From NCBI RefSeq assembly GCF_008369445.1, contig NZ_VTWH01000001.1:248001-312000 (forward strand): a stretch of 64,000 nt of DNA. The letters run 5' to 3'. Source of the DNA: Aureimonas fodinaquatilis (GTDB taxonomy: Bacteria > Pseudomonadota > Alphaproteobacteria > Rhizobiales > Rhizobiaceae). The position numbers were made by a program, and so were the translations under genes. Each line of letters starts with the position of its first letter. Position 1 is the stretch's first letter. Of this stretch, positions 20,462 to 52,397 are shown piece after piece. The notes below the pieces were generated by a model. The model was not told the origin of the DNA. It worked only from the letters and a program-made list of their open reading frames with translations, and did no database searches.

Positions 20462-20518
20462 GACGTCAGTCCCCGTGGTACTGCTTCGATGCTGTAGGCC
20501 GGTTTTCGGCAGCACGCT

Positions 20519-25134: not shown

Positions 25135-25159
25135 GATTCCTGCCTCCTGTTGGCCGGAT

Positions 25160-28067: not shown

Positions 28068-28232
28068 GCATTTCCCGTTGAAGCGTTGTCGCTTCAACGA
28101 CAGGACAATGCGACAGACAGAAAGTTGCATTTCCCGTTGAAGCGTTGTCGCTTCAACGACAGGACAATGCGACAAGATAAAGAGTTTTCGCATTTCCCGT
28201 TGAAGCGGCAACGATTCAACGACAAGATTATG
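28066..28232 (-). repeat. Three tandem copies of the intergenic palindromic repeat
   Basis: Copies start at 28066, 28127 and 28190. The first two share 48 identical bases (28068-28115 and 28127-28174). Each has a perfect stem GTTGAAGCG, TTGT, CGCTTCAAC followed by GACAGGACAATGCGACA. The third is diverged and truncated (GTTGAAGCG/CGATTCAAC). The first copy begins GAGCATTTCCC, overlapping the stop codon of the upstream regulator gene. The unrelated linkers are 11-15 bases. Confidence 0.9.
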
Positions 28233-28249
28233 GATTGGAGTGGACGCTT

Positions 28250-29041: not shown

Positions 29042-29045
29042 TTCA

Positions 29046-29552: not shown

Positions 29553-29627
29553 ATCTGGGCCTACACAAAAGGCCGACACTGTAGAATAGTCGCGATCTTC
29601 GTCCGTACCACCCGGGAGTCATCTATC

Positions 29628-30716
29628 TTGATCCAACGCAGTTTCGCAGGATTTGCCGCCCTTCTCCTTCTTTCCACAAGTGCTCTCGCGCAGGAAAAAC
29701 AGCTCAATATCTACAATTGGTCCGACTATATCGAGCCTTCGATACTGGACGACTTCACCCGCGAAACCGGCATCAAGGTGGTCTATGACACCTATGATTC
29801 GAACGAGATACTGGAAACTCGCCTGCTGGCGGGTGGTAGCGGTTACGACGTCGTTGTGCCTTCAGCAGAATACATGGCTCGGCAGATTGAAGCCGGGGTT
29901 TACCAGAAGCTGGATCAATCGAAGCTGCCAAATCTTGGCAATATGTGGCCGTTGATCCAGGAACGTGTTGAGGCGTTTGACCCGGGCAACGAATACTCGG
30001 TCAATTACATGTGGGGAACCACAGCAATTGGCTATAACAAAAACAAGGTGGCCGAACTGCTGCCGGATGCACCGCTGGACAGCTGGGCTCTGGTTTTTGA
30101 TCCGCAATATGCAGAGGTTCTCAGCAAATGCGGCATCGACATGCTGGATTCTCCGGGCGAAATCATTCCAGCCGCGCTGAACTATCTGGGCGTAAACCCT
30201 GATGCCGCATCACCGGAAGATATTCAGAAAGCAACCGACCTGTTGCTGGCGGTGAGGCCATATATCCGCAAATTCCATTCGTCGGAATATATCAACGCTT
30301 TGGCCAATGGCGATATCTGCGTGGCAGTGGGCTTTTCCGGCGATATTTTTCAGGCGCGTGACCGGGCGGAAGAAGCTGGCGGTGGCGTTGAGATTGGCTA
30401 CACCATTCCCAAGGAAGGGGCGATGATGTGGTTTGATCAGTTCGCCATTCCGGCGGATGCCAGACATGTGGAAGAGGCTCATATCTTCATCAACTACATG
30501 ATGCGGCCTGAAGTCATCGCCAAGGCAACGGATTATGTCGTTTATGCCAATGGCAATCTGGCATCGAAAGAGCTGATTGACGAGGATATCTTCAACGATC
30601 CTGCGGTTTATCCGACCGATGAAACGTTGGAGAAGCTGTATATCAAACTGCCTTATGATGCGCGGGCCCAGCGTCTGGTCACACGCGCTTTCACCACCGT
30701 TCGCACAGGCCAGTAA
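29628..30716 (+). CDS. potF: Polyamine ABC transporter substrate-binding protein
   Basis: The 362-residue periplasmic protein has a signal peptide (FAGFAALLLLSTSALAQ) and then the PotF/PotD fold starting KQLNIYNWSDYIEPSILDDF, with the family segment TGIKVVYDTYDSNEILETRL and the ligand-pocket stretch YMWGTTAIGYNKNKV. It delivers putrescine-type polyamines to the PotGHI importer. The start is TTG 29628 with GGGAG upstream; the signal peptide needs this start. The gene is separated from potG by about 160 bases containing an intergenic repeat, which may lower downstream expression relative to the binding protein. Confidence 0.94.
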   Translation: MIQRSFAGFAALLLLSTSALAQEKQLNIYNWSDYIEPSILDDFTRETGIKVVYDTYDSNEILETRLLAGGSGYDVVVPSAEYMARQIEAGVYQKLDQSKLPNLGNMWPLIQERVEAFDPGNEYSVNYMWGTTAIGYNKNKVAELLPDAPLDSWALVFDPQYAEVLSKCGIDMLDSPGEIIPAALNYLGVNPDAASPEDIQKATDLLLAVRPYIRKFHSSEYINALANGDICVAVGFSGDIFQARDRAEEAGGGVEIGYTIPKEGAMMWFDQFAIPADARHVEEAHIFINYMMRPEVIAKATDYVVYANGNLASKELIDEDIFNDPAVYPTDETLEKLYIKLPYDARAQRLVTRAFTTVRTGQ

Positions 30717-30815
30717 TCGGGCGCTGCAAAGGGTTGACCAAGGGGCCGGGTTTTGACATCCGGTCCTTCACATATGCGGTCTTCCGGGCACCTGAAACGC
30801 TCTGACTCTCTGGTT

Positions 30816-30869
30816 TGTCGCATTGTCCTGTCGTTGAAACTTAACTGCTTAAACGAGAATTGCTCTAGA
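30816..30869 (+). repeat. Intergenic palindromic repeat copy between potF and potG
   Basis: It reads TGTCGCATTGTCCTGTCGTT, then GAAAC, then GCTTAAACGAGAATTGCTCTAG. This is the same family as the copies at 12.6, 28.1 and 37.1 kb. Its right edge CTAGAG runs into AGAGGTGG, the ribosome-binding site of potG. Confidence 0.8.
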
Positions 30870-30876
30870 GGTGGCG

Positions 30877-32028
30877 ATGGCAACGGCTTTGAAATCACTC
30901 GGCAATATCCGCCGCAATTTCGATCCATGGAATGATCCTTCGGCTCAGCCGTTGATCGAGTTTGATCATGTCATCAAAACGTTTGGTGACTTCAATGCTG
31001 TCGACGATCTGTCACTGAACATTTTCACGCGTGAGTTTTTTACGCTGCTCGGCCCATCTGGCTGCGGCAAATCTACACTTCTGCGGATGCTCGGCGGTTT
31101 CGAACAGCCGACATCGGGCGATATTCGGCTGGGTGGCAAAAGCCTGAAAGGCGTGCCGCCTTACCGCCGCCCGCTCAACATGATGTTCCAGTCCTATGCG
31201 CTGTTTCCGCATATGAGTGTCGAAAAGAACATCGCCTTCGGCCTGAAACAGGATGGCATGGCGCGCAGCGAAATTTCCGACCGGGTGGCGGAAATGCTGA
31301 AACTGGTGAAGCTGACGCAATACGCCAAGCGAAAGCCGCAACAACTTTCAGGCGGGCAGCAGCAGCGTGTTGCGCTGGCGCGTTCGCTGGCAAAAAAGCC
31401 AAAGGTTCTGTTGCTGGATGAACCTTTGGGTGCGCTTGATAAAAAGCTGCGGGAAGAAACACAGTTCGAGCTGATGGACCTGCAACAGGAGCTTGGCCTG
31501 ACATTTGTTATCGTGACACATGATCAGGAAGAAGCGATGACAATGTCGGACCGGATTGCCGTCATGCAATCGGGTAAGATCAAGCAGGTGGCCACACCTG
31601 CAATCATGTATGAAGCGCCCGCCACTCGCTATGTGGCAGACTTTATCGGCAATATATCCATTCTCGAAGGCGAGGTCGAAACCTCTTCCGGTGAAAGATT
31701 GCGCCTTTCCAGTGAGGGCGCAATTCTGGAAGTTGCACATGCCCCTGCAATGGCGCCCGGTGACAAGGCAGCTTTTGCCGTCCGTCCGGAGAAGGTCCGG
31801 CTTTCCCGGCACAAACCATTGGATGCATCGGTCAACGCGCTGCAGGGTGTGGTTTGGGACATTGCCTATCTGGGCGATGTGACGCTGTTCAACGTCAAGC
31901 TGAAAAGCGGCACGATTGTGCGCGCCACTGTCATCAATTCAGCGCGGGTTGCGCCTGAGCAGATCGGTTGGGAAGAAGAGGTCTGGCTCAGCTTTCCCGC
32001 CGATGCCGGCGTTATCCTCAAGGATTGA
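30877..32028 (+). CDS. potG: Polyamine ABC transporter ATP-binding protein
   Basis: The 383-residue ATPase carries Walker A GPSGCGKSTLLRML, the signature LSGGQQQRVALARSLA, Walker B KVLLLDEPLGALD, the switch histidine in VIVTHDQEEAMTMSD and a C-terminal TOBE-type domain. It powers polyamine uptake with PotH and PotI. ATG 30877 is preferred over GTG 30871 because AGAGGTGG is correctly spaced from it. The start region overlaps the edge of an intergenic repeat. Confidence 0.94.
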   Translation: MATALKSLGNIRRNFDPWNDPSAQPLIEFDHVIKTFGDFNAVDDLSLNIFTREFFTLLGPSGCGKSTLLRMLGGFEQPTSGDIRLGGKSLKGVPPYRRPLNMMFQSYALFPHMSVEKNIAFGLKQDGMARSEISDRVAEMLKLVKLTQYAKRKPQQLSGGQQQRVALARSLAKKPKVLLLDEPLGALDKKLREETQFELMDLQQELGLTFVIVTHDQEEAMTMSDRIAVMQSGKIKQVATPAIMYEAPATRYVADFIGNISILEGEVETSSGERLRLSSEGAILEVAHAPAMAPGDKAAFAVRPEKVRLSRHKPLDASVNALQGVVWDIAYLGDVTLFNVKLKSGTIVRATVINSARVAPEQIGWEEEVWLSFPADAGVILKD

Positions 32029-32045
32029 TGGCGGAAGGGGCGAAC

Positions 32046-32954
32046 ATGGCCGGCAACAACACTTCAGAAAGCCATTGGTTCAGACGTTCGGTCATAGGCA
32101 TTCCCTATGTCTGGCTGCTGGCACTTTTTCTGGTGCCATTTCTGATCGTCTTCAAAATATCGCTGTCAGAAACGGCCATTGCACAGCCGCCTTACCTGCC
32201 AACCTTCGATCTGTCAGATCTGCAGAGCATCTGGCAGGGTGTTCGCGACTTCTCGACGGACAATTACCTCTGGCTGGCGGGTGATCCCCTCTACATCAGG
32301 GCCTATCTTTCCAGTCTGCGCATTGCACTCATTTCCACTTTTCTGGCTTTGTTGATTGGTTACCCTCTGGCCTATGCCATGGCCAAATCGTCGACGGCGC
32401 TGCGGCCCGTGCTGCTAATGCTCATCATCCTGCCTTTCTGGACGAGTTTTCTGATCCGGGTTTACGCCTGGATCGGCATTTTACGGGGTGAGGGCTATCT
32501 CAACCAGTTTCTGCTCTGGACCGGCGTCATTTCGCAGCCGCTGACCATTCTGAACACCGAGTTGGCGGTCTATATCGGCATTGTCTATTCATATCTGCCG
32601 TTCATGGTGCTGCCGATTTACGCAGGGCTGGAGCGCATGGACCACCGGCTGGTGGAAGCTGCCAATGATCTGGGTTGTCCACCTTTCATGGCCTTCTGGA
32701 AAATTACATTTCCACTGTCATTGCCGGGCGTTCTGGCTGGCAGTTTCCTCGTTTTCATTCCGGCAGTGGGCGAGTTTGTCATTCCGGACCTTCTGGGCGG
32801 CTCTCAAACGCTGATGATCGGCAAGGTCTTGTGGGACGAATTCTTCATCAATCGTGACTGGCCCGTGGCCTCTGCGGTAGCGGTTCTCTTGTTGCTGGTG
32901 CTGGTTGTGCCGATTGTCATTTTCCAACGCTTGCAGGCGAGATCAGCATCATGA
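32046..32954 (+). CDS. potH: Polyamine ABC transporter permease
   Basis: The 302-residue inner-membrane protein has six predicted helices and the permease EAA loop LVEAANDLGCPPFMAFWKITFPLSLPG, which docks onto the ATPase. It is a PotH/PotB-type permease that forms the channel with PotI. ATG 32046 has the strong ribosome-binding sequence GGAAGGGG five bases before it. ATG 32028, overlapping the potG stop, would add six residues. It overlaps potI at its own end (ATGA). Confidence 0.93.
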   Translation: MAGNNTSESHWFRRSVIGIPYVWLLALFLVPFLIVFKISLSETAIAQPPYLPTFDLSDLQSIWQGVRDFSTDNYLWLAGDPLYIRAYLSSLRIALISTFLALLIGYPLAYAMAKSSTALRPVLLMLIILPFWTSFLIRVYAWIGILRGEGYLNQFLLWTGVISQPLTILNTELAVYIGIVYSYLPFMVLPIYAGLERMDHRLVEAANDLGCPPFMAFWKITFPLSLPGVLAGSFLVFIPAVGEFVIPDLLGGSQTLMIGKVLWDEFFINRDWPVASAVAVLLLLVLVVPIVIFQRLQARSAS

Positions 32955-33796
32955 ATTCGCGTCTCTCGCCGTTCAACATCGTCTCGCTTGTACTGGGTTT
33001 CTCGTTTCTGTATCTGCCCATTGTGCTGCTGGTTGTTTATTCGTTCAACGCTTCGCAGCTCGTCACCGTGTGGGGCGGTTTTTCAACCAAATGGTACACG
33101 GCGCTGGCGGGGAACCGGCTGTTTCTGGATGCCGCCTTCATCACGCTTCGCGTCGGGCTTTTGTCGGCAACCCTCGCCACGGTTCTGGGCACTCTGGCAG
33201 CGCTTGCGCTTGTGCGTTACGGCAATTTTCGTGGGCGGCTGCTGTTTTCCGGAATGGTGTTTGCGCCACTGGTCATGCCAGAGGTGATCACCGGCCTGTC
33301 GTTGCTGCTGCTGTTTGTTGCCATTGGTTTCGATCGTGGCTTCTGGACCGTGTCTCTGGCTCATACCACCTTTGCCATGTGCTTTGTCGCAGTTGTCGTG
33401 CAGTCCCGACTGGTAAGTTTTGACCGTTCACTGGAAGAAGCCGCACAGGATCTTGGCTGCACCCCGCTCAAGGCATTTCTGAGTGTAACCCTGCCCGTGA
33501 TCTGGCCGGCGGTGGCGGCTGGCTGGATGCTGGCCTTCACCCTGTCTCTGGATGATCTGGTCATTGCCAGCTTCACCTCCGGTCCCGGCGCAACAACGCT
33601 GCCAATGCGGATTTACAGCCAGGTGCGCTTGGGCGTCACCCCAGAAATCAACGCCATCTCCACGATATTGATTGGCGTTGTGACCACCGGCGTGTTGATT
33701 TCGTCCATCATTTTCAAGCGGCAGGAAGTTCGCCGCCTGCGCGATGAAAGATTGGCGGCCGAGGCTGAAAAGGCCGAAGCAGCCTTGACGCGTTAG
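32951..33796 (+). CDS. potI: Polyamine ABC transporter permease
   Basis: The 281-residue PotI/PotC-type permease has six predicted helices and the EAA loop SLEEAAQDLGCTPLKAFLSVTLPV. The C terminus is a charged cytoplasmic helix (RRLRDERLAAEAEKAEAALT). The ATG overlaps the potH stop by four bases, completing potFGHI. Its TAG stop is the first base pairs of the repeat at 33795-33854. Confidence 0.93.
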   Translation: MNSRLSPFNIVSLVLGFSFLYLPIVLLVVYSFNASQLVTVWGGFSTKWYTALAGNRLFLDAAFITLRVGLLSATLATVLGTLAALALVRYGNFRGRLLFSGMVFAPLVMPEVITGLSLLLLFVAIGFDRGFWTVSLAHTTFAMCFVAVVVQSRLVSFDRSLEEAAQDLGCTPLKAFLSVTLPVIWPAVAAGWMLAFTLSLDDLVIASFTSGPGATTLPMRIYSQVRLGVTPEINAISTILIGVVTTGVLISSIIFKRQEVRRLRDERLAAEAEKAEAALTR

Positions 33797-40896: not shown

Positions 40897-41613
40897 TCAT
40901 GCTTCCTCGGGCTTTACGAGGACTCTGCGCCGAGCTTTTCTGTCAATTTCATCTGAATCACTCCCGCTGGTGGCCAGCGCTTTCTCTTCGCTGATACGCC
41001 GATATGTCGCGCGGGAGCTGAACAGATGTGCTGCCATGGCAGCTTCGGCCCAATCCCCGTCATCTGCAGCGAAGGCTGACACCAGATCATCATGCTGACG
41101 ATTGCTGCGGATCAGCTCTTCCCGTGTCCAACTGTTGAAGGTTGGGCTGACCACAGGGTTGCGTGCGACCAGATTGACCAGATTGGCGAAGATGGTATTG
41201 CCGCCCTGTTTCCATATCCGTCGGTGAAACTGTGCATTCAAGTCTCGGTAACTGCGGCGGTCCGGGTCTGGCAGGTGGATGGCGTGATCCATCCGGCTAT
41301 GAAAGTCGCGCAGGCTGTCGACAAATTCCGCATCCGATTTCGCCACGGCCATGCCGGTGGCAACCGGTTCCAATGCGGCGCGGGCGGTGAAGATATGGAT
41401 GACCTCGTTCGGGTCTATCTCCACCACGACCGCGCGGCGATAGGCTTCGCGCTGGATAACGCCCTCGGCCTGAAGTCGCCGCATGGCCTCGCGGATAGGC
41501 GTGCGGCTGACGCCCAGCCGGGCGGCAAGCTCGCTTTCCGGGATCGTGTCGCCGCCGATATAGACCCCCTCGGCAATGAGGGCACGGATCTTTGAATAAA
41601 TGTCGTCTGCCAT
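40897..41613 (-). CDS. GntR-family regulator, FCD subfamily
   Basis: The 238-residue protein has the N-terminal winged helix (IYSKIRALIAEGVYIGGDTI, then PESELAARLGVSRTPIREAM), with the GntR recognition helix, and an all-helical FCD domain. The metal-binding positions of the domain are suggested by the Asp/His pattern in DLNAQFHRRIWK and the C-terminal AAMAAHLFSSRATYRR. Such regulators usually repress catabolic genes until a carboxylate ligand binds. It is the last gene of the importer operon, 25 bases after the hydrolase stop, and probably controls the divergent promoter at 48.7 kb. The extension to 41670 would overlap the hydrolase. Confidence 0.9.
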   Translation of the reverse strand: MADDIYSKIRALIAEGVYIGGDTIPESELAARLGVSRTPIREAMRRLQAEGVIQREAYRRAVVVEIDPNEVIHIFTARAALEPVATGMAVAKSDAEFVDSLRDFHSRMDHAIHLPDPDRRSYRDLNAQFHRRIWKQGGNTIFANLVNLVARNPVVSPTFNSWTREELIRSNRQHDDLVSAFAADDGDWAEAAMAAHLFSSRATYRRISEEKALATSGSDSDEIDRKARRRVLVKPEEA

Positions 41614-41638
41614 ATTGCGTCTCTGTTGCGCTTGCCTC

Positions 41639-42805
41639 TTATCCGAAATTTCGGGATGCCAGCCAATCACAAATCAGCTTGACCGCAGCCGCCAGATTGG
41701 CAGGCTGGTTGACGAAGTAATGATTGGCCTCGGGTACAACCTGCATGTCCTTGTCGCGAGAGGCGACGGCGGCAAATATCCGGGCGGTATGAGGTTGCGG
41801 CACCGCATCATCGGCGCCGCATTCCACCGCCAGAAAAGGCACGCTCACATCCCGCGCCGTCACCAGCGAATCCGCCCGCGTGTGTTGGTGCGACCATTGT
41901 GACAGCCAACTGCGCAGCGTAGACACCCGCCCCAGCCCGACCGGGCCGCTGTTCACGGTTTCCGGCGCTCCCAGATAAGTCCAGCCGGGTTTGCGGCCAT
42001 TGGGATCAATGGTGGGGTCGAGAAAGCGCGGATCGGCCATGGTGCGGTGGGTGACAAAGACCCGCTCCATCTCCTTGCCGCCCCGGCGTTTCAGATCTTC
42101 CAGCGTTTGCAGAACGCGAGCGTCGATGCCTGCCATCCGCGCTTTTTGTGCAAGGCGATAGGTGGCCAGAAAATCCGCAGAATAGGGTTCGCTGCGCTGC
42201 TCATATCCCGGATGATAGAGGTCAAGTGCCTCGTTGCGCCAGTCGGGGTTCAGCTCGTCTGTGACCGAAGGGTCCAGCCATTCGCTGAGCAAAAGCGCGC
42301 GAGAGGAATGGGCAGCAAGGCTCAGAACCGCATCGGCGGCGGGCAGCGCTGCACCGGCGATATCCACCGGATCGCCAGCCGGCGTCGTGGTGATCGTCGG
42401 ACGCTCCGCCTGTGATTGATAGAGCATGGTCAGCGAGCCGCCTCCGCTCCAGCCACAGAGCACCACTTTGTCGTAACCCCAGTCGCTGCGGGCGGCATGG
42501 ACCCATGCGCCCAGATCCAGCAGCACATTTTCCATGATCAGGCTTGTGTCGTTGCGTTGATAGCGGCTGCCTGCGCACAGCACATGATATCCTGCCCGCG
42601 CCATCGCCTGAGGCAATGGCAGCAGTTGCAACGTCGATGCCGGGTGCATGAAGATCAGCAGCGTCCGCGATGGGCGTTCCGATGGGCAGATCAACAGGCC
42701 TTCGACATTGGTCAGCCCCTGCGAGCCATTGAAGCCATAGGTTTCGGTAAAGGCCTGCCCAGAAGCAAAGGAAAGATGTTTCCAGTGAAAATTCAGTTCG
42801 GTCAT
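41639..42805 (-). CDS. Alpha/beta-fold hydrolase in the importer operon
   Basis: The 388-residue protein has the alpha/beta hydrolase fold with the nucleophile elbow GWSGGGS (VVLCGWSGGGSLTMLYQ). A preceding oxyanion region TLLIFMHPASTLQL fits the fold. A late acidic residue (VECGADDAVPQPHT) and a terminal His (VVPEANHYFVNQPAN) complete a Ser-Asp-His triad. It has no signal peptide, so it acts in the cytoplasm on an imported ester, amide or thioester. It overlaps the dppF-like ATPase by four bases and is co-transcribed with the importer. Its place suggests that it unmasks the substrate of the divergent catabolic genes. Confidence 0.87.
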   Translation of the reverse strand: MTELNFHWKHLSFASGQAFTETYGFNGSQGLTNVEGLLICPSERPSRTLLIFMHPASTLQLLPLPQAMARAGYHVLCAGSRYQRNDTSLIMENVLLDLGAWVHAARSDWGYDKVVLCGWSGGGSLTMLYQSQAERPTITTTPAGDPVDIAGAALPAADAVLSLAAHSSRALLLSEWLDPSVTDELNPDWRNEALDLYHPGYEQRSEPYSADFLATYRLAQKARMAGIDARVLQTLEDLKRRGGKEMERVFVTHRTMADPRFLDPTIDPNGRKPGWTYLGAPETVNSGPVGLGRVSTLRSWLSQWSHQHTRADSLVTARDVSVPFLAVECGADDAVPQPHTARIFAAVASRDKDMQVVPEANHYFVNQPANLAAAVKLICDWLASRNFG

Positions 42806-43917
42806 CCGGCGTGATCCAACGTTTCGGCAAGAATGCCGGCATCTGCGGTTTCGGTTACATGGCCCGCGCGCGGTGGCGTCAGGTCGGGATGAGCGCGCGC
42901 GGCGCTGTCGTCATGGATATGGCAGCGCACCCGCTGACCGCCCGGCTGCTCTGAAAGGCCCGGTTCCACCGCCTCGCATAGTGCGGTGGTATAGGGGCAG
43001 CGTGACGAAAACCGGCAGCCCGGCGGCACTGCCATCGGCGAGGGCACATCGCCGCGCAGTTCCACCCGTTCCGGGGTTTCGCCCGGTTCCATCCGCGGGA
43101 TCGAGGCCATCAGGCGCTGAGTATACGGGTGCAGCGGGCTGGCCAATATATCCTCGGCCCGGCCTTCTTCGACAATGCGGCCCAGATACATCACGGCGAC
43201 ATGATTGCAGATATAACCCACCGTCGCGATATCATGCGAGATGTACAGGACGGCGAGGCCCAGATCGCGCGACAATTCATCCAGCAGTTCCAGCACGCTG
43301 GCCTGAATCGACACATCCAGCATCGACACCGGCTCATCCGCCACGATGAACTTCGGCTCCAGAACCAATGCGCGGGCGATGGCGATGCGCTGCCGTTGCC
43401 CGCCCGAAAGATCGGATGGGTAGCGGTCCATATTGTCGGCGGCGGGGATGCGCACCAGCTCCATCGCCTTGATCACCTTCTGGCGTCGCTCGGCAGCGTT
43501 GCCGATGCCGTGGATGATCAGCGGCTCCTCAATCACCTGCCCGATGGTCAGGCGCGGGTTCAACGAGGAATAGGGGTCCTGAAAAATGATCTGAGCTTGA
43601 CGGCGATAGTCTTTCAGCCGCCGTCCTTCGGCTTTGGTTATGTCGTCACCGCGATAGAGGATCTGGCCGTCGGTCGGATGATACATCCGCACCAGCGACA
43701 TACCGAGGGTGGATTTGCCGCAACCGCTTTCGCCGACAAGGCCGACGATTTCGCGCTCACGAATGCGAAGATCCACACCGTCCAGCGCGCGGGCAGTGGC
43801 AGGCTTCACCCCGGCGAGTGCGCTGAAAATGCCGGTTCGGCCTTGGAAATGGGTCTTCAGATCGCGCGCCTCGATCACGGCAGGTGCATCGGCGGCGATG
43901 CTCGGGCGGTCGGTCAT
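42802..43917 (-). CDS. Oligopeptide/dipeptide-type ABC transporter ATPase (DppF/OppF-like)
   Basis: The 371-residue ATPase contains Walker A GESGCGKSTLGMSLV, the signature LSGGQRQRIAIARALV and Walker B FIVADEPVSMLDVS. The C-terminal region has the oligo/dipeptide-type cysteine cluster (CRFSSRCPYTTALC), which may bind an iron-sulfur cluster. It pairs with the neighbouring OppD-like ATPase. The start overlaps that gene's stop by four bases, and its own stop overlaps the hydrolase start. Confidence 0.93.
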   Translation of the reverse strand: MTDRPSIAADAPAVIEARDLKTHFQGRTGIFSALAGVKPATARALDGVDLRIREREIVGLVGESGCGKSTLGMSLVRMYHPTDGQILYRGDDITKAEGRRLKDYRRQAQIIFQDPYSSLNPRLTIGQVIEEPLIIHGIGNAAERRQKVIKAMELVRIPAADNMDRYPSDLSGGQRQRIAIARALVLEPKFIVADEPVSMLDVSIQASVLELLDELSRDLGLAVLYISHDIATVGYICNHVAVMYLGRIVEEGRAEDILASPLHPYTQRLMASIPRMEPGETPERVELRGDVPSPMAVPPGCRFSSRCPYTTALCEAVEPGLSEQPGGQRVRCHIHDDSAARAHPDLTPPRAGHVTETADAGILAETLDHAG

Positions 43918-45047
43918 GCAGCACCCCTCATGTTATGCGCCATATTCCGCCATGTTTCGGGACGGGCAGCGACCTCACGAAACTCTGCCGCGCAGTGGGT
44001 AAAATGGCAGGCGGCGGATTGCGCACCATGGCGGACCACCGGCGGTGCAGCGGTGCGGCACAGATCGGTGGCAAAGGGGCAGCGGCTGGCAAAGCGGCAG
44101 CCCGGCGGTGGCAGCAAGAGGTTTGGCACCACCCCGGGGATAGAGATCAGCGGCTGGCGCGGTGCGCCCGGCACCGGCAGGCGCGGAAAGGCATTCTGCA
44201 ACCCCATGGTGTAGGGGTGCAGCGGGTGTTTCAGCACGTCGGCCGTCGGTCCGCTTTCGGCCATTTTGCCGGCATACATCACCACGGTGTTCTCGCAGGT
44301 CTCGGCGACCACGGCGATGTCATGGGTCACAAGTATCATCGAGCGGCGCATATGGGCATGGATGCCCCGGATGCGGGTCATGATCTGCGATTGCATGATC
44401 GGGTCCAGCGCGGTTGTAGGCTCATCCGCCAGCAGCATCCCGGCATTGAGCGCCAGCGCCATTGCGATGACGGCACGCTGCCGCATCCCGCCGGAAAACT
44501 GATGCGGAAATTCGTAAAGCCGCCCGGCGGGCAAACCGACAAGCGCGAACATCTCCTCCGCGCGAGCCCAAGCAACCGCCTTGCTGACGCGCTCATGCGC
44601 ACGGATCGCTTCACAGATCTGGTCGCCGATAGTGTAGACGGGGTCAAGCGAGTTCATCGCGCTTTGGGTGATCAGGGAAATGCGTTTCCAGCGGATATCG
44701 CGCAGCGCATCGTCATTTAGGCCGAGAATATTCTGCCCGTCGAGCAGCGCCTGGCCCGCAATATAAGTGCCGGCGGGTTGCAGGCCCATCAGCGCCTTGA
44801 CCACGGTGCTTTTGCCGCAGCCGCTTTCGCCGACAAGGCCCAGATTGGTGCCTGCGGGCACTTCAAAGCTGATATCTTCAACCGCGTGAAACCTGCCGCG
44901 CAGCGTGGAATAGCCGATCGACAGCCCTTCCACCTGAAGCCGGGCGGCAGGCTTGGTGGCAAGCCGCCGGTTCAACTGCTCCAGCTCGGCCAGTGTGGCG
45001 GCAGTGGCGGGCCGGGTGCCGGCGCGCGGGGTAGCAACGGTTGCCAT
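43914..45047 (-). CDS. Oligopeptide/dipeptide-type ABC transporter ATPase (DppD/OppD-like)
   Basis: The 377-residue ATPase has Walker A GESGCGKSTVVKALM, the signature FSGGMRQRAVIAMALALNAGM, Walker B LLADEPTTALDPIM and the C-terminal cysteine cluster CRFASRCPFATDLC. An N-terminal extension of about 35 residues (ATPRAGTRPATAATLAELEQ) precedes the usual start. With the DppF-like partner it forms the motor of the importer. The overlapping starts and stops show it is part of one tightly coupled operon. Confidence 0.93.
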   Translation of the reverse strand: MATVATPRAGTRPATAATLAELEQLNRRLATKPAARLQVEGLSIGYSTLRGRFHAVEDISFEVPAGTNLGLVGESGCGKSTVVKALMGLQPAGTYIAGQALLDGQNILGLNDDALRDIRWKRISLITQSAMNSLDPVYTIGDQICEAIRAHERVSKAVAWARAEEMFALVGLPAGRLYEFPHQFSGGMRQRAVIAMALALNAGMLLADEPTTALDPIMQSQIMTRIRGIHAHMRRSMILVTHDIAVVAETCENTVVMYAGKMAESGPTADVLKHPLHPYTMGLQNAFPRLPVPGAPRQPLISIPGVVPNLLLPPPGCRFASRCPFATDLCRTAAPPVVRHGAQSAACHFTHCAAEFREVAARPETWRNMAHNMRGAA

Positions 45048-45961
45048 CAGCGCCTCCTCAGGCGGGGGTTGGTCTGTTCCTCATAGGCGCGGCCGATCAG
45101 GTAGAGAGCCGAAACCAGCATCACGAGAGCAAGGGAAGGCGGGACCACCCACCACCATGCGGTGCGCAGATTGCCGCTGGTGAAGGCCGTGTTCAGCATC
45201 TGGCCCCAGCTGATCACGGTGGGGTCTCCAAGGCCAAGGAAGGCAAGGCTCGCCTCGGTGAGGATGGCGAAGGCCACCGACATCGTCACCCAGAGAAAGA
45301 TCACCCGCACGATATTGGGCAGAATATGCCGCATGATGATGTGAAAATGCGACGCCCCGGCGGCGCGTGCCCATTTGACATAGATCCGCTCGCGCTCGGT
45401 CAGCACGGCGGAGCGGATAATCCGCGCGCCGTTGCGCCAGAACAGTATGGTGATCACGAGAATGATATTCTCGACACTCGGCCCCAGCAGAGCCACAGCG
45501 ACGATTGCGAAGGGCAGAGTGGGGATCGACAGCGCGACGTCGGTAATCCGCATCAGCACATCATCGACCCAGCCGCCAAAATAACCCGACAGCACACCGA
45601 ACACGGTTGAGATGAAACCGACGGCGATGGCTGCGACAAGGCCCACCAGCAGCGCCACGCGAAAGCCGTACAGGAACTGGCTCAGCACATCATTGCCGAA
45701 GGCGGTGGTGCCCATCAGATACTCGGCCGAGGGCGGGCGCAGGCGGGCCAGACGACCGGTTTCCGTCATCATTGCCTTGAAAGGATCGAACGGGGCCAGC
45801 AGCGGTGCCGTCAGCGCGATGATGATGAACAATATCAGGATCGCGACGCCGACAACGGCAAAACTGTCCTGCATCACCAGGCGAAGCGAGTTCCAGGCGG
45901 CACGCCACGGGCTGCGGCCCTGAATAGCGGCGGGTGTGACGGAGGTTTGAATGTTGTTCAT
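45047..45961 (-). CDS. Dipeptide-type ABC transporter permease (DppC-like)
   Basis: The 304-residue inner-membrane protein has an N-terminal DppC/OppC-type start (AAWNSLRLVMQDSFAVVGVA) and six predicted helices, with the coupling loop KWARAAGASHFHIIMRHILPN for the ATPase. The periplasmic insert holds the sequence SAEYLMGTTAFGNDVLSQFL, characteristic of OppC/DppC proteins. It forms the pore with the DppB-like permease and overlaps it by four bases. Confidence 0.93.
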   Translation of the reverse strand: MNNIQTSVTPAAIQGRSPWRAAWNSLRLVMQDSFAVVGVAILILFIIIALTAPLLAPFDPFKAMMTETGRLARLRPPSAEYLMGTTAFGNDVLSQFLYGFRVALLVGLVAAIAVGFISTVFGVLSGYFGGWVDDVLMRITDVALSIPTLPFAIVAVALLGPSVENIILVITILFWRNGARIIRSAVLTERERIYVKWARAAGASHFHIIMRHILPNIVRVIFLWVTMSVAFAILTEASLAFLGLGDPTVISWGQMLNTAFTSGNLRTAWWWVVPPSLALVMLVSALYLIGRAYEEQTNPRLRRR

Positions 45962-46923
45962 TTATAGACCACCCGCGGATCGAGTTTGCCATACACAAGG
46001 TCAGCAGCAAGGTTTGCCAGCACGATCATCACCGCCAGCAGGAAAAAGGCCGCCTGCGCCACCGGATAATCCTGCCGCGTCACCGCCAGCACCAGTTCGC
46101 GCCCGACGCCGGGCCAGGAGAAGACGATCTCGATCACCACAATGCCTGCGATGGTTTCAGCGAGTGCCGGAAACAGCCAGGTGATCAATGGCAGCATGGA
46201 ATTGCGTGCGGCATGCCAGGCGACGCGGTGTTGCGGTACGCCTTTGGCGCGGACCAGCTCGATATAGTCCTCGGTTCGGTTCTCAACCACGCCGGAGCGC
46301 ATGAGCAGCAGGTTTTCCGGCATGAAATAGATGATGACGGCAATGAGCGGCAGCGCCAGGTGGTGCAGGAAATCCAGCGTCATGTAGCGGGCAAAGCCGG
46401 TCGTCTGGCCGGGATCGCCCATTCCAAAGCCGGGAAACCAGCCCAGCGTGCTGGAGAACACGGTCAGCAGCGCGATGCCGATCACGAAATTGGGCACGCC
46501 TCGAATGACGGTTGCCATGAAGATGCCGGAGCGCTCCAGCTTGCCGCCGCGTTTGGCCCAGCCGACAGCGGTGCCGATGGCCGCGCCCAGAGCCGCGCCA
46601 AGCAGCAAGCCCGGAACTGCAATCCACAGCGTATTCACGATCAGCGGTGTCAGCACCTCCCACACCGGCTTGCGGTAGAGGAAGGACGATCCGAAATTGC
46701 CAGTCAGGATATTGCCCAGATAGGCAACATACTGGTCCCAGAGGGTGCCAGTCAGTCCCCATTGCTCCAGCAGGGCCTGACGGGCCTCTTCGGTCAGGCC
46801 GCGTTCAAGGAGAAGGGCCGTCGGATCGGCAGGCATCACGCGGAACATGAAAAACATGATCGTGGTGACTGCCCAGACGACAAGCACACTCTGTGCCAGG
46901 CGGCGGAGGATATAGGCGCGCAT
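45958..46923 (-). CDS. Dipeptide-type ABC transporter permease (DppB-like)
   Basis: The 321-residue protein begins RAYILRRLAQSVLVVWAVTT, the standard DppB/OppB N terminus, followed by the typical MFFMFRVMPADPTALLLERG. It has six predicted helices and the ATPase-docking loop YIELVRAKGVPQHRVAWHAA. It is the first permease gene, about 110 bases after the substrate-binding protein gene on the same strand. Confidence 0.93.
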   Translation of the reverse strand: MRAYILRRLAQSVLVVWAVTTIMFFMFRVMPADPTALLLERGLTEEARQALLEQWGLTGTLWDQYVAYLGNILTGNFGSSFLYRKPVWEVLTPLIVNTLWIAVPGLLLGAALGAAIGTAVGWAKRGGKLERSGIFMATVIRGVPNFVIGIALLTVFSSTLGWFPGFGMGDPGQTTGFARYMTLDFLHHLALPLIAVIIYFMPENLLLMRSGVVENRTEDYIELVRAKGVPQHRVAWHAARNSMLPLITWLFPALAETIAGIVVIEIVFSWPGVGRELVLAVTRQDYPVAQAAFFLLAVMIVLANLAADLVYGKLDPRVVYK

Positions 46924-47032: not shown

Positions 47033-48652
47033 TTACTTCTTGGGGTAGTGCAGGCGACCCTGCGCATCCCAGCCAAAGCCGGCTTCCGTCAATGCAGCGC
47101 GGGCGGCTTCGATGTCGAACGCAATTTCCGGCAGGTCCTTGTTGTACCACATCGTCAGTTGCTTCGGCACCGGGCCTTCGCCAGCAGGAACGGCAAAGCC
47201 CAGCCAGCCCTCAATCGCGGCGCGGTCCTTGGCGGTTGCCATGCGCAGCGCCTTGCGGAAGGCCTCATTGGTGAACGGCTCTTTTGAATTGTTGAGCCAG
47301 ACGAGCATGGTGCCATGCGACGGAATCTCGAGGAAATCGAGCTGCTCGTTCTGCTCTGCCAGATCGCTCATCGCGGCGACAGGCAGCACCATGGTTGCAA
47401 TATCGCCAGTGCCCGACAGCATGGCCGAACGGATAGCATCGGCCTGACCCAGAGCCAGACGGCGCACGCCATCATAGCCAGGGGCATGGAAGTGGTCGGG
47501 GTTCGCATCCAGTTCGTGGACCTCGTTTACACGCCATGTCTTGAACTTGAATGGGCCGCTGCCGATAGCCACGCCATCCGCCACCACATCACGCGCCACC
47601 ATATCGCCGCTATAGTCCGCCCACAAATGTTCCGGCAGGATGAATGCATAGGGCAGAACTGTCGCTATGAACGATGCATCCGGGGTCTTCAGCTTCACGT
47701 TGAAGGTCAGGTCATCGACCTTTTCCGCCGAGGCGATATTGGCAATGCGCGACGACATTGCAGGGGGTTGCAGCTCCACCACCTTGTTAAGGGTGAACAC
47801 TGCGTCGTCTGCCGTCACCGCTTCGCCGTCGTGGAACTTCATCCCCTCGCGCAGAGTGATTTTCAACGTTGTCGGGTCGGTGAATTCCCATGCGCTTGCG
47901 GCCCACGGAATTGTCTCCCCTTCGGCATTGTTCTTGGCGAATGTGTCATAGACAAAGCGCAGCCAGCCCACAGCGCCCTCTTCGGCAAGAGGGTTATAGG
48001 TCGTGACATCTTCGTAATGCGCCCAGTCGAGCCAGCGGTCATCGGTCAACGGCTTTGCCGAAAGCCACGGGTCAATCAGCCCCTCATGTGCAGCAACGGG
48101 CGCGGGAGAGGTGATGTTTTCCCATTTCTGGCTGTTCCAAAGAATGCCATAGACAGTATTGGTCGCGGGCCACCATGGCATCGTGTCATAGAAATGTTGC
48201 TGTGCCGCGTGGGTGGCGGCAATGCGCTCATCCTGATTGATCAGCTCGCGCTGGTCCTTGACCATCTCGGTATAGGCTTCATCGCACCATTTTGCGCCAT
48301 TGCGCCGCGCGCCGCAGGCACCCAGATCATGCAGCCAATAGGTCGGGTCTACCCGGTCCGGGTCAGCGCCGACGGTGAACACGGCCATATCTTCCAGTCC
48401 GCCGCCCACCATGATGTTCGAGATGAAGGTGCTGAACTGTACCGGTTGCATCTGGAACGTCAGGCCAAGCTTGGCCCATTCTTCCGAAAGCACACGGGCC
48501 GATTGTTCATACATCGGCCCCATATCGGCGGCGTAATAGGCAATTTTCAGTTCCGGTACCGGCTCGCCCAGATCCTGGGCGAAAGCGGGCGCAGCTAAAG
48601 TGACAAGTCCTGTGGCAAGCCAAAGCGGCAGCCTCCTGACGGTGGCAGTCAT
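47033..48652 (-). CDS. Family-5 solute-binding protein, apparently circularly permuted
   Basis: The 539-residue protein has a signal peptide (LPLWLATGLVTLAAPAFA). Unusually, residues 34-180 match what is normally the C-terminal part of family-5 binding proteins: LKIAYYAADMGPMYEQSARV, then LSEEWAKLGLTFQMQPVQFS, then NQDERIAATHAAQQHFYDTM. Residues 222-539 match the normal N-terminal part: GWLRFVYDTFAK and LREGMKFHDGEAVTADDAVF near 234-285, NEAFRKALRMATAKDRAAI near 460, and an end at EAGFGWDAQGRLHYPKK, just where the displaced lobe would start. It feeds the DppBCDF-like importer. ATG 48652 gives the signal peptide; the extension to 48700 does not. The ligand is unknown. Confidence 0.88.
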   Translation of the reverse strand: MTATVRRLPLWLATGLVTLAAPAFAQDLGEPVPELKIAYYAADMGPMYEQSARVLSEEWAKLGLTFQMQPVQFSTFISNIMVGGGLEDMAVFTVGADPDRVDPTYWLHDLGACGARRNGAKWCDEAYTEMVKDQRELINQDERIAATHAAQQHFYDTMPWWPATNTVYGILWNSQKWENITSPAPVAAHEGLIDPWLSAKPLTDDRWLDWAHYEDVTTYNPLAEEGAVGWLRFVYDTFAKNNAEGETIPWAASAWEFTDPTTLKITLREGMKFHDGEAVTADDAVFTLNKVVELQPPAMSSRIANIASAEKVDDLTFNVKLKTPDASFIATVLPYAFILPEHLWADYSGDMVARDVVADGVAIGSGPFKFKTWRVNEVHELDANPDHFHAPGYDGVRRLALGQADAIRSAMLSGTGDIATMVLPVAAMSDLAEQNEQLDFLEIPSHGTMLVWLNNSKEPFTNEAFRKALRMATAKDRAAIEGWLGFAVPAGEGPVPKQLTMWYNKDLPEIAFDIEAARAALTEAGFGWDAQGRLHYPKK

Positions 48653-48908
48653 CGTTTTCTCCTCCCAAAGCACCGAGCCTGTCCACGGGCTGCACGGCAC
48701 TCCTCTGCCGCCTCGCCAATTCTCTTTTTGGTCGGTACGAGGTAAAAGTGTATACGATTTTCAACGTAGTCAATCATTTTTTGCTTGATTTCAGGATTAA
48801 ATTGTAAAAATTGAATGCAGTTTGGCTGTGCAGGCGAAAACGTCGCTCGCCGATAGGTCATGTGGAAATCGAGTCCGCGGGGCCAGACAAAAGCTCGGGA
48901 GGGTTTGC
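48653..48908. promoter_or_regulatory. Divergent promoter of the importer and FAH operons
   Basis: The region is A/T-rich and holds the presumed promoters of both operons. The near-palindrome GTGTATACGAT (48748-48758) resembles FCD/GntR operators built around GTATAC. A candidate region for binding by the GntR regulator at 40897-41613. Confidence 0.55.
48748..48758. promoter_or_regulatory. Candidate FCD/GntR operator
   Basis: GTGTATACGAT is centred on GTATAC and is a near-perfect palindrome with imperfect flanks (left G, right G). Many FadR/VanR-subgroup GntR proteins bind TGTATACA-type sites. Only one clear copy is seen. Confidence 0.45.
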
Positions 48909-50177
48909 GTGAAACATTCATGGATCGACGGGGCACAGGCTCCGGAGTGCGATTTTCCACTGGCGAATCTGCCCTATGGCGTTTTCTCGACGGCGGGGCA
49001 TGGCCCGCGCTGCGGTGTGGCCATTGGCGATCACGTGCTGGATCTGGCCGCACTGGCAGCGGGCGGGTTGTTGCCGGCTGGCGATCACGGTTTTGACCAG
49101 CCTTCGCTGAACCGGTTCATGGCCTCGGGGCCAGAGGCATGGGCCGCGCTGCGCGCAAGGCTGACGGATCTGCTGGCTGAAGGGGGCAGCCCTGATCTGC
49201 GGGAAAATGCTGCCTTGCGCGCCCGCGCTGTGCTGCCGCTGGCGGCAGTGCAGATGCATCTGCCGGTGGAGGTGAAGGGATATACGGATTTTTATGCCGG
49301 GCGGCAGCACGCCTTCAATTCGGGCTCGATCCTGCGCGGGCCGGAAAATGCGCTGACGCCGAACTGGTCACATATGCCCATCGGCTATAATGGCCGGGTA
49401 TCGACCGTGGTGGTCTCCGGCACGCCGGTGCGCCGTCCTCTCGGGCAGGTCATGGGCGAGGGTGCGCCAACATTCGGCCCGTCGAAGCGGCTGGATATCG
49501 AGGTGGAATTCGGAGCAATCGTCGCCCTGCCGACCGAGCTTGGCCAGACCCTGACGGTGGCCGAGGCGTGGGAGCATCTGTTTGGATTCGTGCTGCTGAA
49601 TGACTGGTCGGCGCGCGACATCCAGCGGTGGGAGGGGCAGCCTCTTGGCCCGTTCCAGTCCAAGGCCTTCGCCACCACGATCAGTCCCTGGGTGGTGACC
49701 CGCGCTGCGTTGGAACAATGCCGCCGCTCCGGCCCTGCCCGCGATACTGCACTGCTGCCCTATTTGCAGGAGGAGGCAGATTACTTTTTTGATGTGAAGC
49801 TGGAGGCGCATCTGGCGCCCCAAGGGGCCGCGCAGGCGAGCCGTATAGTGCAAACCAATACCGCGCATCTCTATTATTCCGCGCCGCAGCTTTTGGCGCA
49901 CCACGCAGTCTGTGGCTGCCGGATGCAGACCGGCGACCTGCTCGGCTCCGGAACCATTTCCGGGCCGGAGCGCGGCAATTTTGGCTGCCTCATGGAGCAA
50001 AGCTGGGGTGGGCGCGATGAGATTGCGCTGGAGCATGGCGGCAGCCGGATCTTCCTTGAAGATGGCGACAGCGTGACCCTGACCGGTTGGGGGGAAGTGA
50101 ATGGCCAGCGGATCGGCTTTGGCCGCTGCGAAGGGCAGATTCTGCCCGCGGCAACCGCTGTTGGAAAGGCATTCTGA
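48909..50177 (+). CDS. fahA: Fumarylacetoacetase
   Basis: Fumarylacetoacetase cleaves fumarylacetoacetate to fumarate and acetoacetate, the last step of homogentisate breakdown. The 422-residue protein has the catalytic region GYTDFYAGRQHAFNSG (metal Asp and catalytic His), the metal carboxylates in RLDIEVEFGAIV and NDWSARDIQRWEGQPLGPFQ, and the family motif GSGTISGPERGNFGCLMEQSW with its Glu. All active-site residues known from the mammalian enzyme are in place. The GTG start at 48909 has GGGAGGG five bases upstream. It is the first gene of the divergent plus-strand operon and is coupled to the next gene by TGATG. Confidence 0.93.
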   Translation: MKHSWIDGAQAPECDFPLANLPYGVFSTAGHGPRCGVAIGDHVLDLAALAAGGLLPAGDHGFDQPSLNRFMASGPEAWAALRARLTDLLAEGGSPDLRENAALRARAVLPLAAVQMHLPVEVKGYTDFYAGRQHAFNSGSILRGPENALTPNWSHMPIGYNGRVSTVVVSGTPVRRPLGQVMGEGAPTFGPSKRLDIEVEFGAIVALPTELGQTLTVAEAWEHLFGFVLLNDWSARDIQRWEGQPLGPFQSKAFATTISPWVVTRAALEQCRRSGPARDTALLPYLQEEADYFFDVKLEAHLAPQGAAQASRIVQTNTAHLYYSAPQLLAHHAVCGCRMQTGDLLGSGTISGPERGNFGCLMEQSWGGRDEIALEHGGSRIFLEDGDSVTLTGWGEVNGQRIGFGRCEGQILPAATAVGKAF

Positions 50178-51040
50178 TGCGTCTGTGCAGATTTGATGAC
50201 AATCGTTTGGGTGTGGTCCGTGGTGCGCCAGATGCACTGGTGGTTCACGATGTGACCGGCATTCTGGAGGCGCTGCCTGCGTTTCGCTACCCGCTGCCCG
50301 ACCATGACCCGTTGATCGCGGCACTGCCCGACCTGCGTAGCAGGATCGAAGCGATGGCCGATGCGGCCACCGCGATACCACTGGCAGGCCTGCGCTTGCT
50401 GCCGCCCGTCGCCTCGCCGCGCAAGATTGTGGCTGCCCCGGTGAATTATCGTCTGCACCATGAGGAGGCGCTGGCCGATGACACGATTCACCATAGCACC
50501 AATATTCTGCCGATCGACAAGGCAGGGCTGTTTCTCAAGGCCACAAGCTCGCTGATCGGCGCGTCGGATCCGGTGGTGATCCGCTTCCCCGAGGCGCGCA
50601 ATGACCACGAGATTGAACTGGTCGCGGTGATCGGTGCCCGCGCAAACCGGGTGTCGCGGCATGAGGCACTGTCTTACGTAGCGGGCTATGCCATCGGACT
50701 TGATATGACCGTACGCGGCACACAGGAGCGCAGCATGCGCAAATCCTGCGACAGCTACACCGTGCTTGGCCCCTGGCTGGTGACTGCGGATGAAATCCCC
50801 AACCCCTCGGCTCTGGATCTGCATCTTTTGGTCAATGGCGAAACCCGTCAACAGACATCGACTGCCAATTTGCTTCGCGATGTGGCGGAGCTGATCGAAA
50901 AGGCCTCGGCCTTCTACACGCTGATGCCGGGCGATCTGCTGTTTACCGGCACCCCCGAAGGCGTCGCACCGGTGAAACCCGGCGATGTGATGACCGCGCG
51001 GATCACGGGCATCGGACAAATGGAAATCGCGGTTCGCTGA
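50177..51040 (+). CDS. FAH-family hydrolase/hydratase, second copy
   Basis: The 287-residue protein has the FAH/MhpD fold: PVNYRLHHEEAL (catalytic His), the metal carboxylates in RNDHEIELVAVIG and, after GYAIGLDMTVRGTQERSMRK, CDSYTVLGPWLV. The C-terminal motif is MPGDLLFTGTPEGVAPVKPG. This clade acts on acyl-pyruvate or related diketo acids, but the exact substrate is unclear. The ATG overlaps the fumarylacetoacetase stop by one base (TGATG). Having a second FAH-family enzyme beside fumarylacetoacetase and a third after it is unusual. Confidence 0.85.
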   Translation: MRLCRFDDNRLGVVRGAPDALVVHDVTGILEALPAFRYPLPDHDPLIAALPDLRSRIEAMADAATAIPLAGLRLLPPVASPRKIVAAPVNYRLHHEEALADDTIHHSTNILPIDKAGLFLKATSSLIGASDPVVIRFPEARNDHEIELVAVIGARANRVSRHEALSYVAGYAIGLDMTVRGTQERSMRKSCDSYTVLGPWLVTADEIPNPSALDLHLLVNGETRQQTSTANLLRDVAELIEKASAFYTLMPGDLLFTGTPEGVAPVKPGDVMTARITGIGQMEIAVR

Positions 51041-51057
51041 CCGCAGGGAGAACTATA

Positions 51058-51753
51058 ATGGATTACATTTTCGCACCGCTTCCGGTTCAGAGTCTTCCCG
51101 TCGTTGGTGTAGACAGTCTTTTTGCGCTGCGCCGCATTTTCTGCGTTGGCCGCAACTATGCAGACCATATCCGCGAAATGGGTTTTCAGCCGGAGCGGGA
51201 GGCGCCGTTCTTCTTCACCAAGCCGATTGATGCGCTGGTGCACGATGGCGAAACAGTCGCCTATCCGCCATTGACCGAGAACTTCCACCACGAGGCGGAG
51301 CTGGTGATTGCCATCGGCAAGGCGGGGGCGGATATCGCGGTCGAAAACGCGCTTGACCATGTTTACGGCTACGCCGTCGGCAATGACCTGACCCGGCGTG
51401 ATATGCAATTTGCGTTGCGCGACAGGGGGCGGCCATGGGACTGGAGCAAGGCCTTCGACCGCTCTGCCGTGGTGGGGCCGATCACTCCGATGCCGGGGCA
51501 GGCGCTGTCGGGATCAACGCGGATCTCCCTGACGGTCAATGACGAAACACGTCAGGATGCCACGCTTGATACAATGATCTGGAACGTGCCGGAGATCATC
51601 GCGGCATTGTCCTCCTCGGTCACGATACAGCCCGGGGATCTGGTCTTCACCGGCACCCCGGCAGGTGTGGGGCCGATGCATCCGGGCGACCGCTGCACGG
51701 TTGCCATCGAGGGGCTGACGCCGGTTACTACGCAGATCGGCCCGAGAGCATGA
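51058..51753 (+). CDS. FAH-family enzyme, fumarylpyruvate hydrolase-like
   Basis: The 231-residue single-domain FAH protein contains FCVGRNYADHIREMG, FFFTKPIDALVHDGETVAYP, the metal site in NFHHEAELVIAIG, and NDLTRRDMQFALRDRGRPWD. The C-terminal motif is IQPGDLVFTGTPAGVGPMHP. The RRDMQ and FFFTKP patterns match fumarylpyruvate hydrolases of the gentisate pathway, which yield fumarate and pyruvate. ATG 51058 has GGGAG upstream and starts 17 bases after the preceding gene. The stop overlaps the isomerase gene by four bases. Confidence 0.87.
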   Translation: MDYIFAPLPVQSLPVVGVDSLFALRRIFCVGRNYADHIREMGFQPEREAPFFFTKPIDALVHDGETVAYPPLTENFHHEAELVIAIGKAGADIAVENALDHVYGYAVGNDLTRRDMQFALRDRGRPWDWSKAFDRSAVVGPITPMPGQALSGSTRISLTVNDETRQDATLDTMIWNVPEIIAALSSSVTIQPGDLVFTGTPAGVGPMHPGDRCTVAIEGLTPVTTQIGPRA

Positions 51754-52397
51754 GTGAAATCCGCCTGCACAGCTACTTCCGTTCTTCCACCTCTGTGCGG
51801 GTGCGGGTGGCGCTGGCGATGAAGGGCCTCGACTACGATTATGTCGCCTGGAACCTGCGGGCGGCAGAGCAGCGCTCTTCCGACTTTCTGGCGATCAATC
51901 CGCAGGGCCTTGTGCCGGCACTCGAAGTTGACGGCCTGATCCTTCGCCAATCGCTACCAATCATCGAATATCTGGACGAACGCTTTCCACAGCCTGCACT
52001 TTTGCCCTCCGATAGTGCGGGGCGGGCGCGGGTGCGGGCACTTGCCGCCATGATTGCGTGCGAGGTCCATCCGTTGAACAACCTGCGGGTTCTGCGCTAT
52101 CTGCAAAGCACGTTTGCCGCGGATACAGAAGCACAGGCCGCATGGTTCTGCCATTGGACTCGTGCGACCCTCGACCCACTGGAGTCGATCGTCGCATCTG
52201 CACCGGAAACCGGCGTGTTCTGTCATGGCGACCAGCCCGGCCTGGCGGATATCTGCGTGTTTGCGCAGTTTCTCAACAACCGCCGGTTCGGATTGGCGGA
52301 CAGCGAATGGCCGGTGCTGGCTCGCATCCACGCAGCATGCATGGAAATCGCGGCGTTTCGCGCTGCCGAACCTGACATGCAGCCCGACGCCAAATAG
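51750..52397 (+). CDS. maiA: Zeta-class GST: maleylacetoacetate/maleylpyruvate isomerase
   Basis: The 215-residue protein is a zeta-class GST with the N-terminal active-site motif HSYFRSSTSVRVRVALAMKG (the SSxSxRVR catalytic loop). The cis-Pro segment is PQGLVPALEVDGLILRQSLP, and the C-terminal domain contains GLADICVFAQFLNNRRFG. It isomerises the cis ring-cleavage product (maleylacetoacetate or maleylpyruvate) with glutathione so that FAH-type hydrolases can cleave it. The specificity cannot be separated by sequence alone; both hydrolase types are in this operon. The ATG overlaps the previous stop by four bases. Confidence 0.9.
   Translation: MSEIRLHSYFRSSTSVRVRVALAMKGLDYDYVAWNLRAAEQRSSDFLAINPQGLVPALEVDGLILRQSLPIIEYLDERFPQPALLPSDSAGRARVRALAAMIACEVHPLNNLRVLRYLQSTFAADTEAQAAWFCHWTRATLDPLESIVASAPETGVFCHGDQPGLADICVFAQFLNNRRFGLADSEWPVLARIHAACMEIAAFRAAEPDMQPDAK

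Follow-up and report, generated by a model that had tools for sequence, protein, structure and literature searches.

The product of the gene at 47033-48652 of the window, a 64,000-nucleotide stretch of Aureimonas fodinaquatilis DNA, is very probably a periplasmic solute-binding protein of family 5 (DppA/OppA/NikA-type) that has undergone circular permutation in nature. Its segment order, which we call type A, is given below together with the coordinates of the parts of the chain. The reading frame begins with an ATG at 48652 and ends with a stop codon at 47033-47035 of the minus strand.

47033-48652, minus strand: type-A family-5 solute-binding protein, very probably circularly permuted, 539 aa (Pfam, 18-row alignment, A1 profile against the PDB)
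48578-48652, minus strand: Sec-type signal peptide, residues 1-25, at the new N-terminus (cleavage site placed by eye)
48113-48553, minus strand: residues 34-180, the C-terminal segment in canonical proteins (Pfam 289-359 for residues 36-107; 1XOC 367-496)
48035-48112, minus strand: residues 181-206, junction of the old C-terminus with the old N-terminus (alignment, junction comparison)
47036-48034, minus strand: residues 207-539, the N-terminal and middle segment in canonical proteins (Pfam 2-284; 1XOC 36-345)

The whole protein matched PF00496 in two stretches with a score of 179.4 bits (E 1.5e-52), which places it in the family by the gathering cut-off of 32.4 bits. In this whole-protein scan residues 247-532 were aligned with positions 2-284 of the 368 profile positions. 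When residues 194-539 were scanned alone the match was again to positions 2-284 (E 3.5e-49), and when residues 26-206 were scanned alone residues 36-107 matched positions 289-359 (E 0.024, 14.2 bits, the Pfam cut-off being 32.4). The segment order is not co-linear with PF00496, as positions 289-359 precede positions 2-284. The two matches thus cover the matched profile once, in rotated order, with the cut falling between positions 284 and 289. The same genome contains 19 PF00496 matches; the 18 others extend to positions 330-365 and the window copy ends at 288.

The score of 14.2 bits is low and would fit a conventional co-linear binding protein whose N-terminus had been extended by divergent sequence, in which case residues 34-180 would resemble the canonical C-terminal segment by chance. 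We regard this explanation as very improbable, because a profile made from the window protein and 17 relatives (the A1 profile) put the moved segment in the swapped position of 1XOC. Model positions 217-527 matched 1XOC residues 36-345 (i-E 9.1e-46), whereas model positions 41-172 matched residues 367-496 with an i-E of 5.4e-8, well above chance. Moreover, the A1-profile matches found in canonical loci were often in two swapped pieces, and the window protein stops where the canonical C-terminal segment would start, such that this segment would otherwise be missing. The A1 profile matched 103 PDB sequences at E 1e-10 or better. In the best 60 of these the best stretch started at model position 194 or later, and none was co-linear with the permutant.

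A swapped segment order in a family-5 binding protein had been proposed in an initial annotation made from the sequence of the gene, and both the Pfam pieces and the two-piece 1XOC match bear this out. The single co-linear match that the annotation had named beforehand as contrary to its proposal was sought with the profile and was absent. The annotation was right that a canonical N-terminal part is present, but the part begins at about residues 205-217 by the 1XOC match rather than near residue 230. Likewise, a piece of the C-terminal lobe is indeed displaced, but probably not the whole lobe, since the cut at Pfam 284/289 would, going by the lobe boundaries of OppA, lie inside the second lobe. 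We take the first half of that lobe to remain at the new C-terminus, which ends GRLHYPKK. The leader (MTATVRR...APAFA, with cleavage before Q) reads by eye as a Sec-type signal peptide, in keeping with the normal signal peptide described earlier for the protein.

The permuted order was shared by many relatives. A scan of a genome collection gave 33 related loci: 17 of type A (the homologues of the same order for which the annotation had advised a search), 8 canonical, one (L017) truncated by a contig end and 7 in which the C segment was not recognised and the order was not typed. The 17 same-order relatives are 26-93% identical to the window protein. Ten are from Alphaproteobacteria (77-93% identity) and have also kept the core neighbours of the gene; the other seven (26-29% identity) are from Tissierellia MAGs, Mesobacillus, SAR324, a Deltaproteobacteria MAG and alphaproteobacterial MAGs. 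Invariant residues in the 18-sequence alignment extend from G63 to P537. A tblastn search of plasmid records gave 20 records, all with query cover of at least 80% and 19 of them with the match in one piece. These include Haladaptatus, Natrononativus and Halalkalicoccus at 90-99%, and five haloarchaeal plasmid matches at the level of genera were co-linear with the permutant. Upon typing of all the material, 36 distinct type-A genes (37 rows, the window gene occurring twice) had each segment once, in rotated order.

Comparison with close relatives gave dN/dS ratios of 0.046-0.095 overall and of 0.021-0.065 across the junction (residues 175-225) in six pairs, values that are rough because dS exceeded 1 in five of the six. 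The scans, the plasmid records and these ratios show a permuted form that is inherited in independent genomes and is under purifying selection. An assembly rearrangement, which the annotation had named as the other finding that would overturn its reading, or a frameshifted or otherwise disrupted gene, seems to us vanishingly improbable. There was no sign of a rearrangement: the order and the core neighbours are common to the ten homologues of 77-93% identity, which come from separate genomes, and the frame is open with the low dN/dS ratios given above. The purifying selection, which includes the junction, the full-length relatives in several phyla and the conserved importer linkage described below all favour the earlier suggestion that the protein functions. 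Judged from sequence comparisons, the protein is a real and inherited permutant, and probably a functional one.

An AlphaFold model was obtained with a 32-row alignment (pLDDT 86.0, pTM 0.85). Note that these scores come from an alignment that included canonical fragments placed in the permuted register, which favours the expected fold, and in which a few tail residues from canonical C-segment rows remained misplaced. The weak blocks were residues 181-190 (pLDDT 59), 191-200 (pLDDT 66) and 221-230 (pLDDT 69), and residues 1-24 were the only segment of three or more residues with pLDDT below 50. The single-sequence prediction (pLDDT 33.8) was useless and the alignment-based model was used instead. 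Foldseek returned 173 matches at E 0.001, the best 50 of which were aligned over 337-395 columns and were AppA-, NikA-, DppA-, OppA-type and similar proteins; none of these 50 covers the permuted chain co-linearly. Foldseek is a sequential aligner, so such partial alignments are expected of a permutant, and the permutation is not demonstrable by Foldseek alone. The chain would probably adopt the ordinary two-lobed clam shell. The canonical PF00496 proteins (AppA 1XOC, DppA 1DPP, NikA and OppA) share with the permutant the homologous segments, an export signal, a DppBCDF-type operon and, according to the model, a similar fold, but have the segments in the reverse order. In family-5 proteins the two termini are neighbours in the first domain, and domain III of OppA spans about residues 271-486.

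The distribution of the permuted form was surveyed with a junction-region query (A2) at E 1e-20. Matches were found in at least 11 of 151 genomes of the family of the window genome, at least 11 of 337 genomes of its class, at least 1 of 299 in the sample of its phylum (only its own genome) and at least 30 of 299 genomes of the Mesobacillus phylum, all of these figures being lower bounds because the first look scored no more than 8-18 candidates in each genome. The region covered by A2 is contiguous in type A and also in a second permuted form, type B, and the matches were typed afterwards. The 15 matches in the family and the 12 in the class were all type A, whereas the 39 matches in the Mesobacillus phylum comprised 10 of type A, 24 of type B and 3 canonical, together with a fragment (G703) and a match whose order was not typed (G791). 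The family sample includes a second genome from the window's genus, G079, which gave no match with 18 of its 20 candidates scored, so type A may be unevenly distributed even among close relatives. The fragment, on contig 27 of G703 (L085, also recorded as L151), is a type-A piece covering A1 model positions 59-260 with one in-frame TGA; it could be a decayed copy or reflect a different genetic code. On these sequence matches type A appears to extend through Pseudomonadota, Bacillota, SAR324 and haloarchaea, and type B so far through genomes of the Mesobacillus phylum.

Type B is represented by 24 genes from 20 genomes of the Mesobacillus phylum (L092 and L117-L138). The chain of these proteins opens with the sequence that comes after the NPxYW strand and closes with the strand itself. 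In the representative examined, residues 44-267 matched PF00496 positions 146-361 and the later part matched positions 4-143, giving a cut at 143/146, which by the domain boundaries of OppA-type proteins is presumably inside domain I. Against 5U4O the type-B profile aligned as three rotated pieces (i-E 3.2e-25, 1.9e-4 and 6.1e-4), and in the order to which G724 belongs 8 of 13 genomes gave a near-full co-linear match to the type-B model. In 19 of 22 type-B loci, genes similar to the permease B, permease C and ATPase genes of the window were present no more than 6.5 kb away on the strand of the permutant gene, although those counted for L125 may belong to an adjoining canonical operon. Two type-B matches (G1063 and G1060) carry one TGA each. 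Types A and B are thus alike in being permuted family-5 proteins that are mostly linked to importer genes, but differ in the cut (Pfam 284/289 versus 143/146) and fall into separate clades.

This separation was seen upon phylogenetic analysis. From 107 typed rows, 75 were taken for a quick tree (18 untyped rows, rows of less than 80% coverage and ten near-duplicate loci were left out), and 55 of the 75 (18 of type A, 13 of type B and 24 canonical), with the segments put into one order, were used for a more careful tree. In the careful tree type A formed one clade (100/99) and type B another (100/100). The two were not sisters, and the canonical rows required two changes in all 200 of 200 bootstrap trees. 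The AU test (p 0.21) did not reject a tree with A and B forced together, which cost 15.7 log-likelihood units. In the quick tree of 75 rows type A, type B and three canonical rows made up a trio with unresolved branching, and the nearest canonical rows in two quicker trees were L082 and the canonical genes of L125 and L137. Two separate chain openings are needed whether or not A and B are sisters. We lean, by a modest margin of confidence, towards family 5 having been permuted at least twice, by opening of two different loops, to give two widespread working architectures.

The sites of joining and of opening could be compared with canonical sequences by eye. Canonical L082 has ...GGIGNLWSICMVKPKQI at its C-terminus and ...KKDGTILKIGIAEEPRTLN at its N-terminus, and the A and B junctions resemble these ends joined with little or no added sequence, as in L012 (GEGIGSLWSDLNVSVKKGDGYIRTGQTSPLKNLNP). 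We had considered the likeness of the A and B junctions as proof of a single fusion event and dropped this argument, as the canonical L082 ends carry similar motifs. At the other site, the two new ends of type A, G-x-L-x-Y-P at the C-terminus and G-x-x-V at the mature N-terminus, have their counterparts side by side in the canonical L125 sequence ...GLIMPNGKKMPSFEF..., so the cut looks clean. A likely route would be that a canonical gene was duplicated in tandem or fused and that the two outer pieces were then lost. The old C-terminus would thereby be connected to the old N-terminus by a short stretch (about residues 181-206), new termini would be opened in the loop at Pfam 284/289 and an export signal would stand at the new N-terminus. 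Alternatively, a deletion could have joined the C part of one binding-protein gene to the N part of a different neighbouring one, giving a chimera whose architecture would be the same. Tandem binding-protein genes do occur in related loci (type-B genes are paired in L124 and L125), and sequence cannot distinguish such an origin from duplication of a single gene. However, the C-terminal GIGNLW and the N-terminal TILKIG...LN of L082 resemble by eye the flanks of the junctions in both types, as would fit an end-to-end fusion inside a single lineage, and we consider a chimera unlikely, at about the level of a serious minority view. Duplication or fusion of one gene is the origin that we prefer.

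The genes that surround the permutant in the window are as follows.

40897-41670, minus strand: GntR/FCD regulator (in ten of ten close relatives)
41639-42805, minus strand: alpha/beta hydrolase (Peptidase_S9 and Hydrolase_4 above the Pfam cut-off; in ten of ten close relatives)
42802-43917, minus strand: DppF/OppF-type ATPase (below equivalog cut-offs)
43914-45047, minus strand: OppD/DppD-type ATPase (below equivalog cut-offs)
45047-45961, minus strand: Dpp/Opp-type permease C subunit (NCBIfam Opp4C/DppC relatives, below equivalog cut-offs)
45958-46923, minus strand: Dpp/Opp-type permease B subunit (NCBIfam Opp2B/Opp4B/DppB relatives, below equivalog cut-offs)
48822-50177, plus strand: divergent fumarylacetoacetase, start codon uncertain (TIGR01266, 486.9 bits, cut-off 375.3)
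50087-51040, plus strand: FAA-hydrolase family protein, start uncertain (PF01557)
51058-51753, plus strand: FAA-hydrolase family protein (PF01557)
51750-52397, plus strand: maleylacetoacetate isomerase, MaiA (TIGR01262, 243.4 bits, cut-off 171.05)

Both permeases, the two ATPases, the alpha/beta hydrolase and the GntR/FCD regulator lie directly downstream of the permutant gene, which is thus linked to the genes of a DppBCDF/OppBCDF-type importer, and the annotation's description of an intact importer beside the gene holds. In the 6-kb flanks of the ten close relatives homologues of the hydrolase, the GntR regulator, FAH1 and FAH2 were found in all ten, FAH3 in six and MaiA in five. Among the 36 type-A loci (the window included) 32 have, no more than 6.5 kb away and in the orientation of the permutant gene, counterparts of the window's permease B, permease C and ATPase genes, as recognised by similarity. 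A full adjoining importer is missing in the other 4 of 36, two of which are cut by contig ends. A crude and permissive test found an export-like leader in all 36 type-A genes.

From these sequence features the most likely role is ordinary solute capture and delivery to the adjacent importer: the permutant would bind a small solute in the periplasm and hand it over to the DppBCDF-type importer encoded next to it. A non-transport role, for example as the ligand-binding protein of a sensor or chemoreceptor, would accord with L016, a locus in which no importer gene was detected, and with L109, which has none on the same strand. Since importer genes follow the permutant gene immediately in the window and share its strand in 32 of the 36 type-A loci, such a role is improbable and transport remains the favoured reading. 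The solute may perhaps be a compound that is handled by the products of the divergent fumarylacetoacetase, FAA-hydrolase and MaiA genes together with the alpha/beta hydrolase. The fumarylacetoacetase beside the permutant gene is the only one above cut-off in its genome, and no match to homogentisate dioxygenase (TIGR01015) was found in that genome, whereas the enzyme was found in the Caulobacter control. A plain tyrosine/homogentisate reading of the substrate was dropped for this reason. The region 48822-52397 contains a fumarylacetoacetase, two FAA hydrolases and MaiA in a genome without a homogentisate dioxygenase match. Elsewhere in the window, by reading only, 22018-33796 looks like a putrescine-type uptake and breakdown cluster (glutamine-synthetase-like protein, oxidoreductase, binding protein, ATPase and two permeases) with isocitrate lyase between, and 12802-21477 like the genes for a cbb3-type oxidase, its assembly and a copper ATPase, beside an Fnr-like regulator.

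Circular permutation has precedents among binding proteins. According to the passages available from PMC4990184, TpMglB-2 (Tp0684) is a circularly permuted cluster-B glucose-binding protein of 387 residues for which ligand binding was shown, the permutation also occurs in other treponemes and in Gram-positive bacteria, and a subclass "Type Ic / Cluster Bc" was proposed. Going by that part of the paper, TpMglB-2 is, like type A, a natural permutant of an ABC binding protein, but its fold cluster and its cut differ. The window protein does not belong to Cluster Bc (cluster-B, type I fold), as its sequence and fold matches go to family-5 proteins. The same passages give membrane tethering as a possible cause of the TpMglB-2 permutation (PMC4990184). 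A lipobox was detected by a crude test in only 5 of the 36 type-A leaders, the others being Sec- or Tat-like, and hence tethering alone is unlikely to explain type A. In the available text of PMC2395249, glycine-betaine binding proteins found with CPSARST are related by circular permutation, on the basis of structure and at less than 24% sequence identity, to molybdate-binding proteins and CysB. As far as that text goes, this is again a permutation within a binding-protein fold, as in type A, but not in family 5. In the parts of PMC2588589 available, SBP_bac_5 appears in a table and circular permutation only in the reference list, and the relevant passages of PMC2861598 and PMC9732360 contain nothing on permuted binding proteins. 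Among the papers listed in searches of the open-access literature, none was by its title or start of abstract about a permuted family-5 protein, in agreement with the annotation, which knew of no such family. Natural permutation as such had already been described for ABC binding proteins.

Family-5 proteins are common, as the 19 matches in this one genome illustrate, yet the permuted forms carry a generic name: in 15 of the 20 plasmid records the name is only "ABC transporter substrate-binding protein", the other five being without annotation there. Profiles read the permuted forms as partial or two-piece matches, and pipelines for domain calling or structure search will misinterpret them where co-linearity is assumed. 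The two cuts within one family provide natural material for the relation of chain order to folding, lobe closing, tethering and importer docking.
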